A DNA stretch of 64,000 nt from an uncultured Isosphaeraceae bacterium (lineage in GTDB: Bacteria > Planctomycetota > Planctomycetia > Isosphaerales > Isosphaeraceae). The translations under genes were made by a program, and so were the position numbers. Positions 48,966-58,148 of this stretch are shown one piece after another. The DNA lies in assembly GCA_945957605.1 (NCBI GenBank), contig CAMFLR010000002.1, forward strand, positions 420,197 through 484,196, written 5' to 3'. The notes beneath the pieces were generated by a model. That model searched no databases. It worked only from the letters and a program-made list of their open reading frames with translations, and was not told the DNA's origin. Each line of letters opens with the position of its first letter. Within the stretch, counting starts at the first letter, position 1.

Positions 48966-49191
48966 GAGCGATGATTCTCCCGTCGTGCGGCGTCAGTTGT
49001 GATTCTTGAATGATACCGTGTCACTCGGCCGACACCGAAGTCTGTTCCCGCTTGCAACTGCGCGCGGGCTCGATTCCAATGAAATTTATCCAACCGCGGC
49101 TGGACGCTGGCGTCCAAATTCACTCGACGCGACTCCGCGCCACGAGGTTCGCCGCGACCAACCGCACATCTCCGTAGTGGTGGCTCCGACC

Positions 49192-50094
49192 ATGATCGAC
49201 TCGGACATCATCGACAAACTGCGTGTCACCCCCGGCAAGCAAGTGAAGCTCAAGGAATGGGCCACAGGTTGGGCGTTTGCCGACGAAGTTGAAAAGGCCG
49301 GCAAAGCCGCAGTAAAAGCTCGTGCGAGCGAGATTCTGAACCAAAGCCTCGAACACCTTGCATCCGCCCAGCAGGTGCTCTACGCGGATAACCGCTACGC
49401 ACTGCTCGTGGTTCTTCAGGCCATGGACGCCGCCGGCAAAGACGGCACGATCAAACACGTGATGTCGGGCGTGAATCCGCAAGGCTGCGAGGTCCACTCG
49501 TTCAAGAAACCGTCGACCGAAGAACTTGAGCACAACTTCCTCTGGCGCTACTCGCGATGTCTTCCCGAGCGAGGACGCATCGGAATTTTCAATCGATCCT
49601 ATTATGAAGAAGTGCTCGTCGTTCGAGTCCACCCCGAATTGCTCGCCAACCAGGTATGCGCAACTGAGAAGCCCAAGAAGAAGCAGTGGGAGCATCGCTT
49701 CGAAGATATCAACGCATTCGAACACCATCTCAGCCGGAATGGCACGAAGATCGTGAAGTTTTTCCTGCATCTCTCCAAGGGCGAGCAAAAGAAGCGGTTC
49801 CTCGAACGGCTCGACCGCCCCGAGAAGAACTGGAAGTTCTCCTCCTCCGACCTCGCCGAACGCGCCCACTGGAACGACTACACCGAAGCTTTTGAAGACG
49901 CAATCACCGAAACGAGCACGAAATGGGCCCCCTGGCACATCATCCCCGCCGACGACAAATGGGCAACCAGAGCCCTCGTCGCCGACATTCTCGCCACGAC
50001 AATCGATTCGCTTGACCTGCGCTACCCCAAACTCTCCGAGACCGAGCAAGCTGCGCTCGCCTCGGCGCGTGAGCAACTCGAAAACGAAAAGTAA
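49192..50094 (+). CDS. polyphosphate kinase 2 family protein
   Basis: A 300-residue PPK2, which moves phosphate between polyphosphate and nucleotides. Walker A AMDAAGKDGT lies at 77-86, the Walker B-like GIFNRSYYEEVLVVRVHPE at 131-149, and the lid region KFFLHLSKGEQKKRFLERLDRPEKNWKFS follows, then DYTEAFEDAITETST..WHIIPADDKW. The pattern with GIFNRSYYEEVL resembles the class that can phosphorylate AMP and ADP; this is inference. The frame opens 62 codons earlier with poor sequence; the ATG at 49192 fits the family start. It is functionally close to the Pho block. Confidence 0.92.
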   Translation: MIDSDIIDKLRVTPGKQVKLKEWATGWAFADEVEKAGKAAVKARASEILNQSLEHLASAQQVLYADNRYALLVVLQAMDAAGKDGTIKHVMSGVNPQGCEVHSFKKPSTEELEHNFLWRYSRCLPERGRIGIFNRSYYEEVLVVRVHPELLANQVCATEKPKKKQWEHRFEDINAFEHHLSRNGTKIVKFFLHLSKGEQKKRFLERLDRPEKNWKFSSSDLAERAHWNDYTEAFEDAITETSTKWAPWHIIPADDKWATRALVADILATTIDSLDLRYPKLSETEQAALASAREQLENEK

Positions 50095-52766: not shown

Positions 52767-54059
52767 CTAACGATCCCGAGGCTCCGCATTTTCGCCTCTG
52801 TCAGAAGACTCTCGCGGGCTCGTCGGCTCCTTAACCGCCGGCACCAGAAACGCCCCAAGAACCAGCCCCAACGTCAGGCCAGCAATCACAAGGCACGATT
52901 GCGTCGCGCTCAGCAGAATCGCCGCCACGGTCTCGGTCGTTCCGTTGTCCGAGTGGCGGGCAAATCGCAAAGCGCCGCCGAGCGCTTGATAGAGCAACAA
53001 TCCGGGCATCATAGGCACTGCGCCGGCAAACGCGATCACAGCAAACGGCGTCTTTCCCGACCGAGCAATCCAGCCCGCCACCGCTCCCACTGCAATCCCG
53101 CCGAGAAACGTCGCTCCTTCGAGCCGAAATCCCGCTTCAAGCCCCAAATAACGGCAACCGTGGCCGATCATCCCCACCAGTGCCGCCATCCCCACCTGCT
53201 TCCACGGCGAGTTGAACACCACAGCGAACCCGCACGTGACGATTGCCGCTAGAATCAAATCGGCGACCAGACCGATGTGTTCTGCATCCCCCTTAACTCC
53301 CGGCGGCAGCCCATCCGGTAATATGAGCTCAACCCCCGCGACAACCCCAAGCGCATTCGCAATCAATATGCCGCTTGCGAGTCCGAGTCGTGCGAGACTC
53401 ATTGGTATATAATTTTCAACAAGATCCAGAACTCCGTTGATCAAATGCGGGCCAGGGACCAGCATCAGCGCAGGAACGATCAGCGCGAGTTCAGGCGTGC
53501 GGAGCCAGCCGAGCCGAAACGCCAATCCACCGAAAATCGCCCCCAGAAATGATGCAGCGAGTGGCGGCAAAAAAAGACTGTCGACACGTCTTGAAATCTC
53601 CTGGCGAACCAAAAGCCCCAAACCCGCGGCGAATCCAGCAACCAATGCGGCCCCGACGCCCGCCCCTAGCACCCCCGCCAGTCCCGCGGCGGCAAGCGCG
53701 ATCATGAGCACGGCAACCCAGCGGGAATGCCTCGGTGTATCGACCTCGGATCGCTCGAGCAACGCGAGGGCTGAGGCCGTATCAAGATCGGCACGACGCA
53801 CTCGATCGAGAATCGAATGGACGCGAGCCAGCAGCGCGGTGTTGGGATGAACCTGACGAAACTCCTTGATCCGCGGGACATCTCCTCCCAGCGACACCGC
53901 GATCGCGCCATACGACACCACGACGTCGCACCGCTCGTCGCTTATCGCCCGCGCAGTGTCGGCAAGCGTTCGGCGCGTGGCGCCGGTCGATTCGCTATGT
54001 CCCAGAAGCAGTCGCCCCGCTTCTGCCAACAACTCGATTTTCAGCCTTTGCGCATCCAT
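52767..54059 (-). CDS. threonine/serine exporter family protein
   Basis: A 430-residue ThrE-type exporter combining the two halves, ThrE (residues about 10-250) and ThrE_2 (about 285-400), in one chain. The soluble N-terminal part contains the family pattern AGRLLLGHSESTGATRRTLADTARAI and the glycine-rich helices GVLGAGVGAALVAGFAAGLG. About ten transmembrane helices follow, with the motif PALMLVPGPHLINGVLDLVENYI and PMMPGLLLYQ in the second half. It should move small amino acids out of the cell. The ATG at 54059 is preferred over a GTG five codons upstream. It lies 34 bases before the phosphofructokinase stop. Confidence 0.85.
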   Translation of the reverse strand: MDAQRLKIELLAEAGRLLLGHSESTGATRRTLADTARAISDERCDVVVSYGAIAVSLGGDVPRIKEFRQVHPNTALLARVHSILDRVRRADLDTASALALLERSEVDTPRHSRWVAVLMIALAAAGLAGVLGAGVGAALVAGFAAGLGLLVRQEISRRVDSLFLPPLAASFLGAIFGGLAFRLGWLRTPELALIVPALMLVPGPHLINGVLDLVENYIPMSLARLGLASGILIANALGVVAGVELILPDGLPPGVKGDAEHIGLVADLILAAIVTCGFAVVFNSPWKQVGMAALVGMIGHGCRYLGLEAGFRLEGATFLGGIAVGAVAGWIARSGKTPFAVIAFAGAVPMMPGLLLYQALGGALRFARHSDNGTTETVAAILLSATQSCLVIAGLTLGLVLGAFLVPAVKEPTSPRESSDRGENAEPRDR

Positions 54060-54092
54060 CGCATGTCTCAACACTCAGAACGTCGACACCGC

Positions 54093-55403
54093 TCACTCAA
54101 ACCGCGCCGGCTGACCTGTCACCGCGAGAACAGCCGCCCACAACTCGCTCGCCGGGTCAACCTGCCGCTTCTGCTCGACCGCCATCTCGATCGGCACGTG
54201 CGCAAACGACCCATTGAGGCCGACGACCACAAGATCCGTCCTCCCCGACATCGCCGCATGCACCGCGCGCCTGGCGAGTTGATCGCAAAGGAAACTATCT
54301 TCGGTGTTGGCCGGACTACTTCGAATGATGTAGCTCGGATCGATGTATTTCACATCCACCGGATTGCCGATCGTCTTGAAGTGCTCGACGATTTGTTCCT
54401 TGAGATACGGGCCAATGTCATGGTAGCGACGATTGCCCGACGCGTCGGCCCCTTCCGCCTGATCGTCGAATAGATGCTGCCCTGCCCCTTCGGAAACAAC
54501 GACGACGGCATGATCGCGCTCGTCCAACCGACGTGCCAACGCGGCAAACAAACCACGCTCGCCTTGGAGTCGGAACGGAACTTCAGGGATGAGCGTGAAG
54601 TTCGCTTCCTGAGAGGCAAGCGTCGCGCCACAGGCGATGAACCCCGCATCGCGCCCCATCACCTTCACCAACCCAATTCCGCGAGGCGCGCCCGCTGCCT
54701 CTGTGTGCGCGAGGTTGATCACCCCTTGGGCCTGCTCGACTGCGGTGGTAAAGCCAAAGGTTCGCGTGCAGTAATTCAGGTCGTTGTCGATCGTTTTGGG
54801 AATGCCCACGACCGCAACCTTCATTCCTCTTTGACGAATCTCTGTGGCAATCGAGTGTGCCCCGCGCTGGGTGCCGTCGCCGCCGATGCAAAAGAGTAGG
54901 TTGATCCGTTCCCGCTCGAGGAACTCGGCCATCCGCCCCATATCCTGCCGCCCTCGCGACGAGCCCAGGATACTTCCGCCTTCCTTGTGAATCGTCGAAA
55001 CGAGTTCGGTCGTCAGCCGAATCGGCGGCCGGCCAACCGATGGATCCAACCCCATGTATCCATTGCGAATGCCCAGAACTTCGGCCACGCCATAGCCGAA
55101 ATGCAGCTCGAGAAAGAGCGAGCGAATGACGTTATTGAGCCCAGGACAAAGCCCACCGCACGTAACAATCGCAGCTCGGGTATCGGCTGGGTCGAAGGCA
55201 AGTTGCTCGCGTGCTCCGGCCTTCTCGAAGAGGAGATCGTCCCCCTCGTCTGTGTGCGAAAATTCCACACGATTCCGAACCCAGGCATCGTCGGATACGA
55301 ATCTCGGGAGCGCGGCCTGATGCTCGGTCGAGCGACAGAGCGGAGAGCGAAATTGCGGAGGCCCGATCAATTCCGCGCGAACCATCCGTTCGGATATGCT
55401 CAT
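54093..55403 (-). CDS. 6-phosphofructokinase, plant/trypanosome-like group
   Basis: A 436-residue phosphofructokinase with a 70-residue N-terminal extension. It has the Gly-rich start TCGGLCPGLNNVIR, GGDGT at 174-178, PKTIDND at 202-208, and VKVMGRDAGFIA in the F6P site. GGDGT with Gly points to ATP as donor, whereas Lys in PKTIDND is the residue found in PPi-dependent enzymes; this mix is typical of the long plant/trypanosome-like ATP group. It phosphorylates fructose 6-phosphate in glycolysis. GGGAGG lies nine bases before the ATG. It is divergent from the G1P dehydrogenase gene. Confidence 0.9.
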   Translation of the reverse strand: MSISERMVRAELIGPPQFRSPLCRSTEHQAALPRFVSDDAWVRNRVEFSHTDEGDDLLFEKAGAREQLAFDPADTRAAIVTCGGLCPGLNNVIRSLFLELHFGYGVAEVLGIRNGYMGLDPSVGRPPIRLTTELVSTIHKEGGSILGSSRGRQDMGRMAEFLERERINLLFCIGGDGTQRGAHSIATEIRQRGMKVAVVGIPKTIDNDLNYCTRTFGFTTAVEQAQGVINLAHTEAAGAPRGIGLVKVMGRDAGFIACGATLASQEANFTLIPEVPFRLQGERGLFAALARRLDERDHAVVVVSEGAGQHLFDDQAEGADASGNRRYHDIGPYLKEQIVEHFKTIGNPVDVKYIDPSYIIRSSPANTEDSFLCDQLARRAVHAAMSGRTDLVVVGLNGSFAHVPIEMAVEQKRQVDPASELWAAVLAVTGQPARFE

Positions 55404-55706: not shown

Positions 55707-56759
55707 ATGTCGCCCAGGACGGAAATCGGCATCCCCACCATCGTGCGCATGAAGCCAGGCGCACTCGATCGCCTGGGAATTTATCTCGCGCGACAGGCCT
55801 ACCATCGAGTCGTCCTCGTCGTCAGTCAGGGAATGGGTGCCGACCTGATCGAACGGGCCGAAGAAAGCCTCGCGCAGAACCGAGTCGAATCGGTCAACCG
55901 AGTTGAGGTTCCCGACGCGAGTTTTGAGGCTGTCACGAACCTGCTGACGAAACTCGGCGGCGATCGCCAGGCCATCATCGGCCTCGGCGGCGGCAAGGCG
56001 CTCGACGTCGCCAAGTACCTCGCCCATCTCGCAAAACGGCCGTTCTACGCGGTCCCAACCTCGCTTTCTAACGACGGCTTTTGCTCGCCGCAATCGAGCC
56101 TCACACTGGCCGGCCGCCGCCGTTCGCTCGCCGCCACACTGCCGTTCGCGGTGATCGTCGACACGGAAGTTTGCCTGGGAGCTCCGCAGCCGCTCTGGTG
56201 GTCCGGCGTGGGCGATCTCGTCGCCAAGGTCACCGCCGTTTTCGATTGGAAGCTCGCGTTCCACACCCATGGAGAGCCTGTCAACGACTTCGCAGCGCTA
56301 CTGTCCGACGCGAGCGTCTTCCAGTTCGTCTCGAACCCCGACCGAAGTGCCGAAGGTGCCCGACGGCTGGCCCTGGCCCTCATGCTCAACGGCATCTCGA
56401 TGGAGGTCTGCGGCTCATCCCGTCCGGCGAGTGGCTCAGAACACCTGATTTCGCACTCGCTCGACGCAACGAGCGCCCGCCCTCGATTGCACGGTCTTCA
56501 AGTCGGCGTCGCCACCTATATTTGCAGCCGATTGCAAGGTCAAGGAACGGAGTTGATCGCCACCGCCCTCGATCGCACCAATTTCTGGGACGGAATTCGC
56601 GCCGACCCATTTTCACGGAGTGAGTGGCTGGAAGCCGTGAAAAAAGCCCCGGAAATCAACCCCGAACGTTTCACCGTTCTCTCGACCCGAGACGTCGTTC
56701 CTGAAGTAGCCGCGATGATCGATCAGGATCCCAGGCTCCAGGGATGTTTCATCGCGTAG
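55707..56759 (+). CDS. sn-glycerol-1-phosphate dehydrogenase family protein
   Basis: A 350-residue member of the iron-containing/AraM-like glycerol-1-phosphate dehydrogenase family, which reduces dihydroxyacetone phosphate to sn-glycerol 1-phosphate, the backbone enantiomer of archaeal lipids. The NAD(P) site is GLGGGKALDVAKYLA (92-106), the substrate loop VPTSLSNDGFCSP (116-128), and the metal ligands are Asp170, His246 and His262 with GSEHLISH. All three are present, so it should be active. AGGAG lies eight bases before the ATG. A glycosyltransferase-like gene follows after 72 bases. Confidence 0.85.
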   Translation: MSPRTEIGIPTIVRMKPGALDRLGIYLARQAYHRVVLVVSQGMGADLIERAEESLAQNRVESVNRVEVPDASFEAVTNLLTKLGGDRQAIIGLGGGKALDVAKYLAHLAKRPFYAVPTSLSNDGFCSPQSSLTLAGRRRSLAATLPFAVIVDTEVCLGAPQPLWWSGVGDLVAKVTAVFDWKLAFHTHGEPVNDFAALLSDASVFQFVSNPDRSAEGARRLALALMLNGISMEVCGSSRPASGSEHLISHSLDATSARPRLHGLQVGVATYICSRLQGQGTELIATALDRTNFWDGIRADPFSRSEWLEAVKKAPEINPERFTVLSTRDVVPEVAAMIDQDPRLQGCFIA

Positions 56760-56831
56760 AAGATGAGTGGAGCGGGCATTTGCTCACGTCCACAGTAATC
56801 GAATTCAAATCTCAGTATTGAGGTCTACGCG

Positions 56832-58148
56832 ATGAGCCAGGCGTGGGTAGTTGCGGTCGACATGGGTTACGGGCATCAACGCGCCGCGTATCCCTTCCGA
56901 GACATTGGCTACGAAGGAATTATCACCGCCAATACCGGCGCGATGGTCGACCCAAACGAACGGAAACGCTGGATCACATTTCAATACCTCTACGAAGGTA
57001 TTTCACGCGTTAACAAGATTCCCGTCATCGGTCCATGGCTCTGGCGAACTTACGACCGTTTGCAGGCCATTAACCCACATTACCCATTTCGGGATCTGTC
57101 GCAGCCAACTATCGGATCGATGCGTCTGGATCGCCTCATGAGTCGTGGTTTTGGCCGCAGCATCGTCGAACACACTCGCACGCGCGAGGATCTCCCGCTT
57201 CTCACAACGTTCTTCGCCGTCGCCCTGGCCGCAGACCGCCTGGGACGAAAGGATGCCTTCTGCGTAGTGACCGACACCGACGTCAACCGAATCTGGGCGG
57301 CGAAGGTGCCGTCCGAAGGTCGCATTAACTACCTTGTGCCGACACCGCTAACACGCCAGCGCCTGATGCAATATGGCGTGCCCGCCGAGCGTATCTTCTT
57401 CACCGGCTTCCCGCTGCCTCAGGCCAACGTCGATTCGGCCGCCGAAGACCTGCGCAATCGCCTCCCCGTGCTCGATGCACGCGGAGCTTTTCGGCGCGGC
57501 TATGGCAGAATGCTCGATGCCGAACTCGGTCCCATTCCGTCCACCATTGAGCGGCCGCTGTCGATCACCTACGCGGTCGGAGGCGCCGGCGCCCAGGCCG
57601 AGCTTGCTCACGACGTTCTTACTGGCCTCGCGGCTCATCTGCGCGACGGTCGCATGCGACTCAACCTCGTCTCGGGAGTTCGTGCGGAAGTCGACCAGTA
57701 CTTTCGTCGAACGATCGCCGAACTTCGGCTCGAATCCGAGATCGGGCAAAGCATCCGCCTTCTGCACGCGCCCACCAAAGACGAGTATTTCGCCCAATTC
57801 AACCAACTGCTCAGAGAGACCGACATCCTTTGGACGAAACCAAGCGAGCTTTGCTTTTACCCTGCCCTTGGCATTCCGCTAATCATGTCTGCGCCGCTGG
57901 GGGCGCACGAGGAACGCAACCTCGAAACCGTGTTGCGCATTGGTGCGGGGCAGAGACAAGAAGACCCTCGCGCCGCGGGTGAATGGCTAACCGACTGGCA
58001 GAATAACGGCCTGCTCGCGCTCAACGCCTTCCAGGGCTATTTTCATATGCCGAGACAGGGTACAGAGAACATCAAGCGACTGCTCTTCGCACCGGACCGA
58101 TCGCAAGTCGCCATGGACCTGGGCGCTGTGCTGCCCGAGCGATTCTAA
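56832..58148 (+). CDS. glycosyltransferase-like protein (GT-B type)
   Basis: A 438-residue protein without signal peptide. The N-terminal MSQAWVVAVDMGYGHQRAAYPFRDIG resembles the GGHxxAA start of MGDG-synthase/MurG-type (GT28-like) GT-B enzymes, and the C-terminal half holds the donor-site-like TKPSELCFYPALGIPLIMSAPLGAHEERN. The middle VTDTDVNRIWA and FTGFPLP also fit that fold. No exact family is recognised. GAGG lies eight bases before the ATG. Following the G1P dehydrogenase, it could act on a lipid headgroup; this is inference. Confidence 0.65.
   Translation: MSQAWVVAVDMGYGHQRAAYPFRDIGYEGIITANTGAMVDPNERKRWITFQYLYEGISRVNKIPVIGPWLWRTYDRLQAINPHYPFRDLSQPTIGSMRLDRLMSRGFGRSIVEHTRTREDLPLLTTFFAVALAADRLGRKDAFCVVTDTDVNRIWAAKVPSEGRINYLVPTPLTRQRLMQYGVPAERIFFTGFPLPQANVDSAAEDLRNRLPVLDARGAFRRGYGRMLDAELGPIPSTIERPLSITYAVGGAGAQAELAHDVLTGLAAHLRDGRMRLNLVSGVRAEVDQYFRRTIAELRLESEIGQSIRLLHAPTKDEYFAQFNQLLRETDILWTKPSELCFYPALGIPLIMSAPLGAHEERNLETVLRIGAGQRQEDPRAAGEWLTDWQNNGLLALNAFQGYFHMPRQGTENIKRLLFAPDRSQVAMDLGAVLPERF

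Follow-up and report, generated by a model that had tools for sequence, protein, structure and literature searches.

The window, by which we mean the whole 64,000-nucleotide stretch of DNA that was analysed, belongs to the genome of an uncultured Isosphaeraceae bacterium (8.8 Mb in 33 contigs, 95% complete). Its forward strand carries a gene of the glycerol-1-phosphate dehydrogenase (G1PDH) type (Fe-ADH_2 family; 55707..56759, 350 amino acids), followed after a gap of 72 bases by a gene of the same orientation for a DUF6938 protein that remotely resembles the GT-B glycosyltransferases of the UgtP/MGDG-synthase kind (56832..58148, 438 amino acids). Both open reading frames start with ATG, and their GC3 values (0.72 and 0.67, respectively) are like those of other genes in the window; a scan for promoters and terminators gave nothing above chance. 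Divergent to the dehydrogenase, on the reverse strand, lies a gene for 6-phosphofructokinase of the PRK06830 type (54093..55403); a ThrE-type exporter is encoded on the same reverse strand (52767..54074) and a PPK2 polyphosphate kinase on the forward strand (49006..50094).

The metal ligands Asp170, His246 and His262, which the sequence-only reading had listed for the dehydrogenase, are found exactly at these positions and are present in 100% of the 104 dehydrogenase rows that we aligned, some of which come from the same genomes. Another conserved element is the segment SSRPASGSEH at residues 237-246. Within its SRPxSGxEH part (residues 238-246) S238, R239, P240, S242, G243, E245 and H246 are invariant over the same 104 rows; these residues also occur in the solved G1PDHs 5fb3, 4rgq and 9h4x, while the GldA row lacks most of the segment. 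Among family models the closest is the G1PDH model PRK00843/EgsA (225.6 bits, E 8.5e-67). The GldA subfamily model PRK09423 gives 63.3 bits, against its cut-off of 336, and the NCBIfam model for haloarchaeal glycolaldehyde reductase gives 45 bits, far below the G1PDH score. The best match in the PDB is 3ce9 (236 bits), in which Ser replaces the Arg of the signature, followed by the solved G1PDHs 5fb3, 4rgq, 4rfl and 9h4x. The nearest named dehydrogenase, that of Tautonia sociabilis, is 70% identical to the window protein. The same reading called the enzyme an archaeal-type G1PDH. Since the protein retains the whole signature that EgsA has in common with the AraM-like entry, an enzyme that forms sn-glycerol-1-phosphate (G1P) is plausible on sequence grounds, but the score falls well short of the 413-bit equivalog cut-off of PRK00843.

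The second gene is indeed glycosyltransferase-like, as had been noticed from the letters alone. Its product scores 49.6 bits on Pfam PF22053 (DUF6938), where the gathering score is 27, and all nine of its nine homologues match the same family; the alignment of these nine homologues in turn matches 9wde, a processive diacylglycerol beta-glucosyltransferase, with E 1.2e-11. On PRK13609 the protein itself reaches 23.4 bits, against a curated cut-off of 500, and a single-sequence AlphaFold model (mean pLDDT 36.8) is too poor for a reading of the fold. What did not hold is the conservation of the gene pair. Among 118 relatives the full-length gene exists in one, the window's genome itself, with weak partial matches in four others. 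Across 246 genomes of the phylum, close homologues (38-44% identity) occur in nine other genomes, one of them as a fragment at a contig end; the dehydrogenase has some match in 41 genomes of that set, and the nine are all outside these 41. Nor does any locus that we fetched, apart from the window's own, contain both genes. The glycosyltransferase-like gene is probably a chance neighbour. A distant paralogue of it is present elsewhere in the same genome (L031:9105-10346, contig G000:C19), and four relatives of the family have similar weak matches.

The real partner of the dehydrogenase across many bacteria is a different gene, one for a phosphatase of the HAD superfamily. A scan of contigs of GTDB genomes returned 80 dehydrogenase loci at 53-70% identity, from Planctomycetota, Verrucomicrobiota, Omnitrophota, Desulfovibrionaceae, Acidobacteriota and Myxococcota. 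When all open reading frames around the dehydrogenase were clustered, one strongly conserved neighbour emerged, an MtnX-like HAD-IB phosphatase roughly 225 amino acids long, whose gene immediately precedes that of the dehydrogenase, in the same orientation, in 63 of the 80 loci (the genes were called mechanically, and the caller misses some in GC-rich loci). Two of the 17 loci without an adjacent HAD gene (L109 and L173) are contig edges, which leaves 15 informative exceptions, two Myxococcaceae among them. The same upstream arrangement is seen in 19 of the 22 dehydrogenase loci of the relatives, some of whose genomes are shared with the 80. Irrespective of adjacency, the two genes also tend to occur together: among the 118 relatives 23 have the dehydrogenase and 31 the HAD gene, and 20 have both; three genomes have only the dehydrogenase and 11 only the HAD gene. 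In other words, the HAD gene is present in 20/23 genomes with the dehydrogenase and in 11/95 without it (Fisher p 5e-12, a value uncorrected for kinship).

The two proteins have diverged together as well. Over the 63 loci the identity matrices of HAD and dehydrogenase correlate with r = 0.83, a value reached in none of 1000 permutations, and r is 0.50 among pairs with less than 65% dehydrogenase identity. The trees of the two proteins group the loci in similar ways, and that of the dehydrogenase requires the HAD gene to have switched at least 11 times from adjacent to non-adjacent or back; both are quick trees with SH-aLRT support only and long outgroup branches, so that deep placement is unsure. 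The catalytic motifs of the HAD protein (DxDGT, Ser, Lys and GD..D) are preserved, with D9, D11, S95, K146 and D169 at 100% and D165 at 97% in 83 rows, and we infer that conserved segments of the dehydrogenase and of the phosphatase bind the phosphate.

On a plasmid of D. vulgaris DP4 (L202:7658-11050, NC_008741.1), which is outside the set of 80, an orthologue of the dehydrogenase with 60% identity follows a gene for a SpoIIE-type phosphatase, has type III secretion genes nearby and lacks an adjacent HAD gene. Five genomes of one genus (G281, G285, G260, G287 and G289) have a second G1PDH-like gene, of 30-35% identity, at 5-9 kb from the HAD-dehydrogenase pair; the genes in between look unrelated, judging by names read by eye at L179. 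A Shinella plasmid (L203:5713-9399) encodes a distant "sn-glycerol-1-phosphate dehydrogenase", behind which come a HAD-IIB hydrolase gene and glpD; this is possibly an independent pairing with a HAD protein.

The window's own genome does contain the phosphatase gene, but unlinked, on another contig (G000:C9:23323-23958); its product is 54% identical to the Tautonia HAD. No decayed copy was found upstream of the dehydrogenase: over the whole window, tblastn gave nothing better than a match with an E value of 5.3. In the dehydrogenase tree the window protein groups with five family members (SH-aLRT 99), all five of which have an adjacent HAD gene. In the HAD tree the copy of this genome groups with G246 and G247 (88), and this group with G270 and G275 (91); the dehydrogenase is present in G247 alone among these four genomes. 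Most simply, the operon would have been broken up in the lineage of the window, but the two genes may instead have had separate histories. Where the HAD gene is present without the dehydrogenase, an acetate kinase gene is directly upstream of it in two genomes (L188 of G300, assigned by Pfam, and L187 of G290, read by eye) and nearby in a third (L184 of G270, read by eye), and in a relative of the same family (G257, L201:1492-2908) it directly adjoins the gene of a MIP channel on the same strand.

The explanation that we find best is a short route to glycerol. The dehydrogenase would reduce dihydroxyacetone phosphate (DHAP) with NAD(P)H to G1P, and the MtnX-like HAD-IB phosphatase, as a dedicated partner, would then dephosphorylate G1P to glycerol, the pair of genes acting as a self-contained, horizontally spread two-gene unit. 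The case for it consists of the families of the two proteins, their intact catalytic residues, the conserved adjacency, the co-occurrence and the co-divergence; substrate, direction, stereochemistry and end product are inferred, and we give the route an even chance of being right. The glycerol may be an osmolyte, or its formation may serve as a sink for reducing power; the data choose neither. The use of the G1P enantiomer would keep the flow towards glycerol apart from the sn-glycerol-3-phosphate of the membrane lipids, which in this genome would be made by an ordinary GpsA-type dehydrogenase that is encoded in it. The broader claim, that a mobile two-gene unit in many phyla, with a G1P-specific dehydrogenase and its own phosphatase, turns DHAP into glycerol via G1P, insulated from the glycerol 3-phosphate of phospholipids and in a role unrelated to archaeal-type lipids, we hold more tentatively, with somewhat less than even confidence.

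Several observations count against the glycerol route. The equivalog score is not reached, and the nearest solved relative, 3ce9, is named a glycerol dehydrogenase and lacks the Arg of the signature. The phosphatase gene is unlinked in the window's genome, and three of the nearest relatives of its product (G246, G270 and G275) come from genomes without the dehydrogenase. To these must be added the 11 HAD-only genomes, the 15 informative loci and the D. vulgaris DP4 plasmid copy without an adjacent HAD gene, and the small number of loci with glycogen or phosphofructokinase genes nearby (2 to 5 of 88). The main reason for caution is a haloarchaeal enzyme, VNG_6270G, whose annotation as G1PDH did not hold (PMC9700705).

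Of the alternatives, the most serious one reverses the order of the two enzymes. The substrate of the dehydrogenase would be an unphosphorylated or some other carbonyl compound, and the HAD protein would act first, for instance converting DHAP to dihydroxyacetone, which the dehydrogenase would reduce to glycerol, or acting on another sugar phosphate, the product of which is then reduced. The HAD gene is the first one in the operon, the substrates of HAD-IB phosphatases of the MtnX kind are varied, and the name of 3ce9 fits a dehydrogenase of this sort. The haloarchaeal protein VNG_6270G, although annotated as G1PDH, is in fact a glycolaldehyde reductase and has no notable activity on G1P (PMC9700705). 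We nevertheless regard this order as unlikely, given that the window protein keeps the SRPxSGxEH segment, which EgsA and the AraM-like entry share and which is mostly missing in the GldA row, and that it scores 225.6 bits as a G1PDH against 63 as GldA and 45 as glycolaldehyde reductase.

It is less probable still that the dehydrogenase works in the oxidative direction, salvaging G1P, for example from surrounding archaeal lipids, into DHAP. At one locus without an adjacent HAD gene (L128:6631-9041) the gene directly upstream of the dehydrogenase encodes a transporter of the MFS family, which by eye is similar to organophosphate antiporters and could possibly carry glycerol phosphate. This transporter is present in just one of 88 loci, however, and a phosphatase, the commonest neighbour of the dehydrogenase, would waste the G1P. 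Comparably improbable, in our opinion, is that in this particular genome G1P feeds some other product, for instance nucleotide-activated glycerol from which a surface polymer is built, and that the HAD protein is unrelated to the matter here. The unlinked phosphatase gene and the glycosyltransferase-like gene after the dehydrogenase would agree with it, but no nucleotidyltransferase was seen among the scanned neighbours in the window or among the 25 commonest neighbour families of each of two scans. When the sequence-only reading spoke of "another G1P-derived compound" it may have been correct, with the qualification that the evidence favours plain glycerol, formed with the help of a HAD phosphatase, over a lipid or glycolipid.

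The weakest explanation, that the dehydrogenase and the glycosyltransferase-like gene jointly make a G1P-based lipid or glycolipid, was the first one proposed for this locus and can point to two co-oriented genes 72 bases apart and to a distant resemblance of the second product to a diacylglycerol glucosyltransferase, but we consider it very improbable and reject it as the main reading, since none of the other genomes searched has the pairing, GpsA is present, and a search for geranylgeranylglyceryl phosphate synthase (GGGPS/PcrB) found none in the window's genome and none above the cut-off in the 118 relatives, with two weak matches below it.

Returning to the glycerol route, the wider gene neighbourhood adds a little. 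Families of neighbours were assigned for 125 of the 153 upstream and 115 of the 141 downstream open reading frames, short and some doubtful ones having been dropped and long ones cut to 330 amino acids, and the 25 commonest families of each scan were considered. Beyond HAD there is no common neighbour family, PPK2 (6 of 115 scanned neighbours) and queuosine synthesis (4 of 125) being the most frequent; hence two enzymes seem to be enough. Within 88 loci, phosphorylase is found near the dehydrogenase in five, a debranching-type gene in four, acetate kinase in three, phosphofructokinase in two (L134 and L155), PPK2 in nine and the ThrE-type exporter in one (L155). At L134 the genes for phosphorylase, a CBM48/alpha-amylase protein, phosphofructokinase, HAD and the dehydrogenase are all co-directional, and L155, with a debranching-type gene, ThrE, phosphofructokinase and PPK2 near the dehydrogenase, matches the PPK2, ThrE and phosphofructokinase genes of the window. 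A tie of the unit to glycogen use and glycolysis in these few loci is suggestive only; where a metabolic context is present, it is upstream of DHAP. Two MIP channels are encoded in the window's genome and might pass glycerol.

A G1PDH in bacteria is in itself not new. AraM of Bacillus subtilis is known as one (PMC4244643), and bacterial homologues form a deep clan in published trees (PMC6431249) and are drawn on in debates over the lipid divide and LUCA (PMC6431249 and PMC5059525). In the open-licence literature we found no paper that describes the HAD-dehydrogenase unit or assigns glycerol synthesis to it. If our reading is true, it would provide a bacterial route to glycerol that can be tested with two purified enzymes, and a role for bacterial G1PDH unconnected to archaeal-type lipids. 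Should G1P in a large bacterial clade be made just for glycerol, it would further follow that a G1PDH-like gene alone is no pointer to such lipids.

With archaeal EgsA (5fb3, 4rgq/4rgv and 4rfl) the window protein shares the fold family, the metal ligands, SRPxSGxEH and the GGG dinucleotide-binding motif; it differs in that its family is a separate clade in the tree, scores below the curated cut-off and occurs without GGGPS. The nearest solved sequence, 3ce9, which we take to be from Clostridium acetobutylicum, joins the window family in the tree with SH-aLRT support of 95, its Ser at the signature Arg being the difference. The HAD partner resembles the MtnX-like HAD-IB phosphatases (TIGR01489) in catalytic motifs and overall match, and two of its homologues, neither being the copy from the window's genome, score 72.1 and 74.8 bits, just below the cut-off of 81.55; the equivalog cut-offs of MtnX itself are far from reached by these homologues. 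The logic of the proposed route is that of eukaryotic Gpd1 and Gpp1, where DHAP is converted to glycerol phosphate and then to glycerol by a dehydrogenase and a HAD phosphatase; there the enantiomer is the opposite one and the dehydrogenase family is unrelated, and the window protein is not a member of it. VNG_6270G has in common with our protein its annotation as G1PDH and a pathway that, too, includes a HAD phosphatase (PMC9700705), whereas the window protein scores far lower on the glycolaldehyde reductase model than on that of G1PDH. In Bacillus subtilis the HAD gene araL precedes araM in araABDLMNPQ, and its product is of the NagD type and inactive on glycerol 3-phosphate (PMC3207120), whereas the partner in the window family is MtnX-like. 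B. subtilis also has PcrB and makes heptaprenylglyceryl phosphate (PMC4244643), in contrast to the window's genome, where our search found no PcrB. By analogy, araL-araM suggests that the partnering of a G1PDH with a HAD protein may recur with an unrelated type of HAD.
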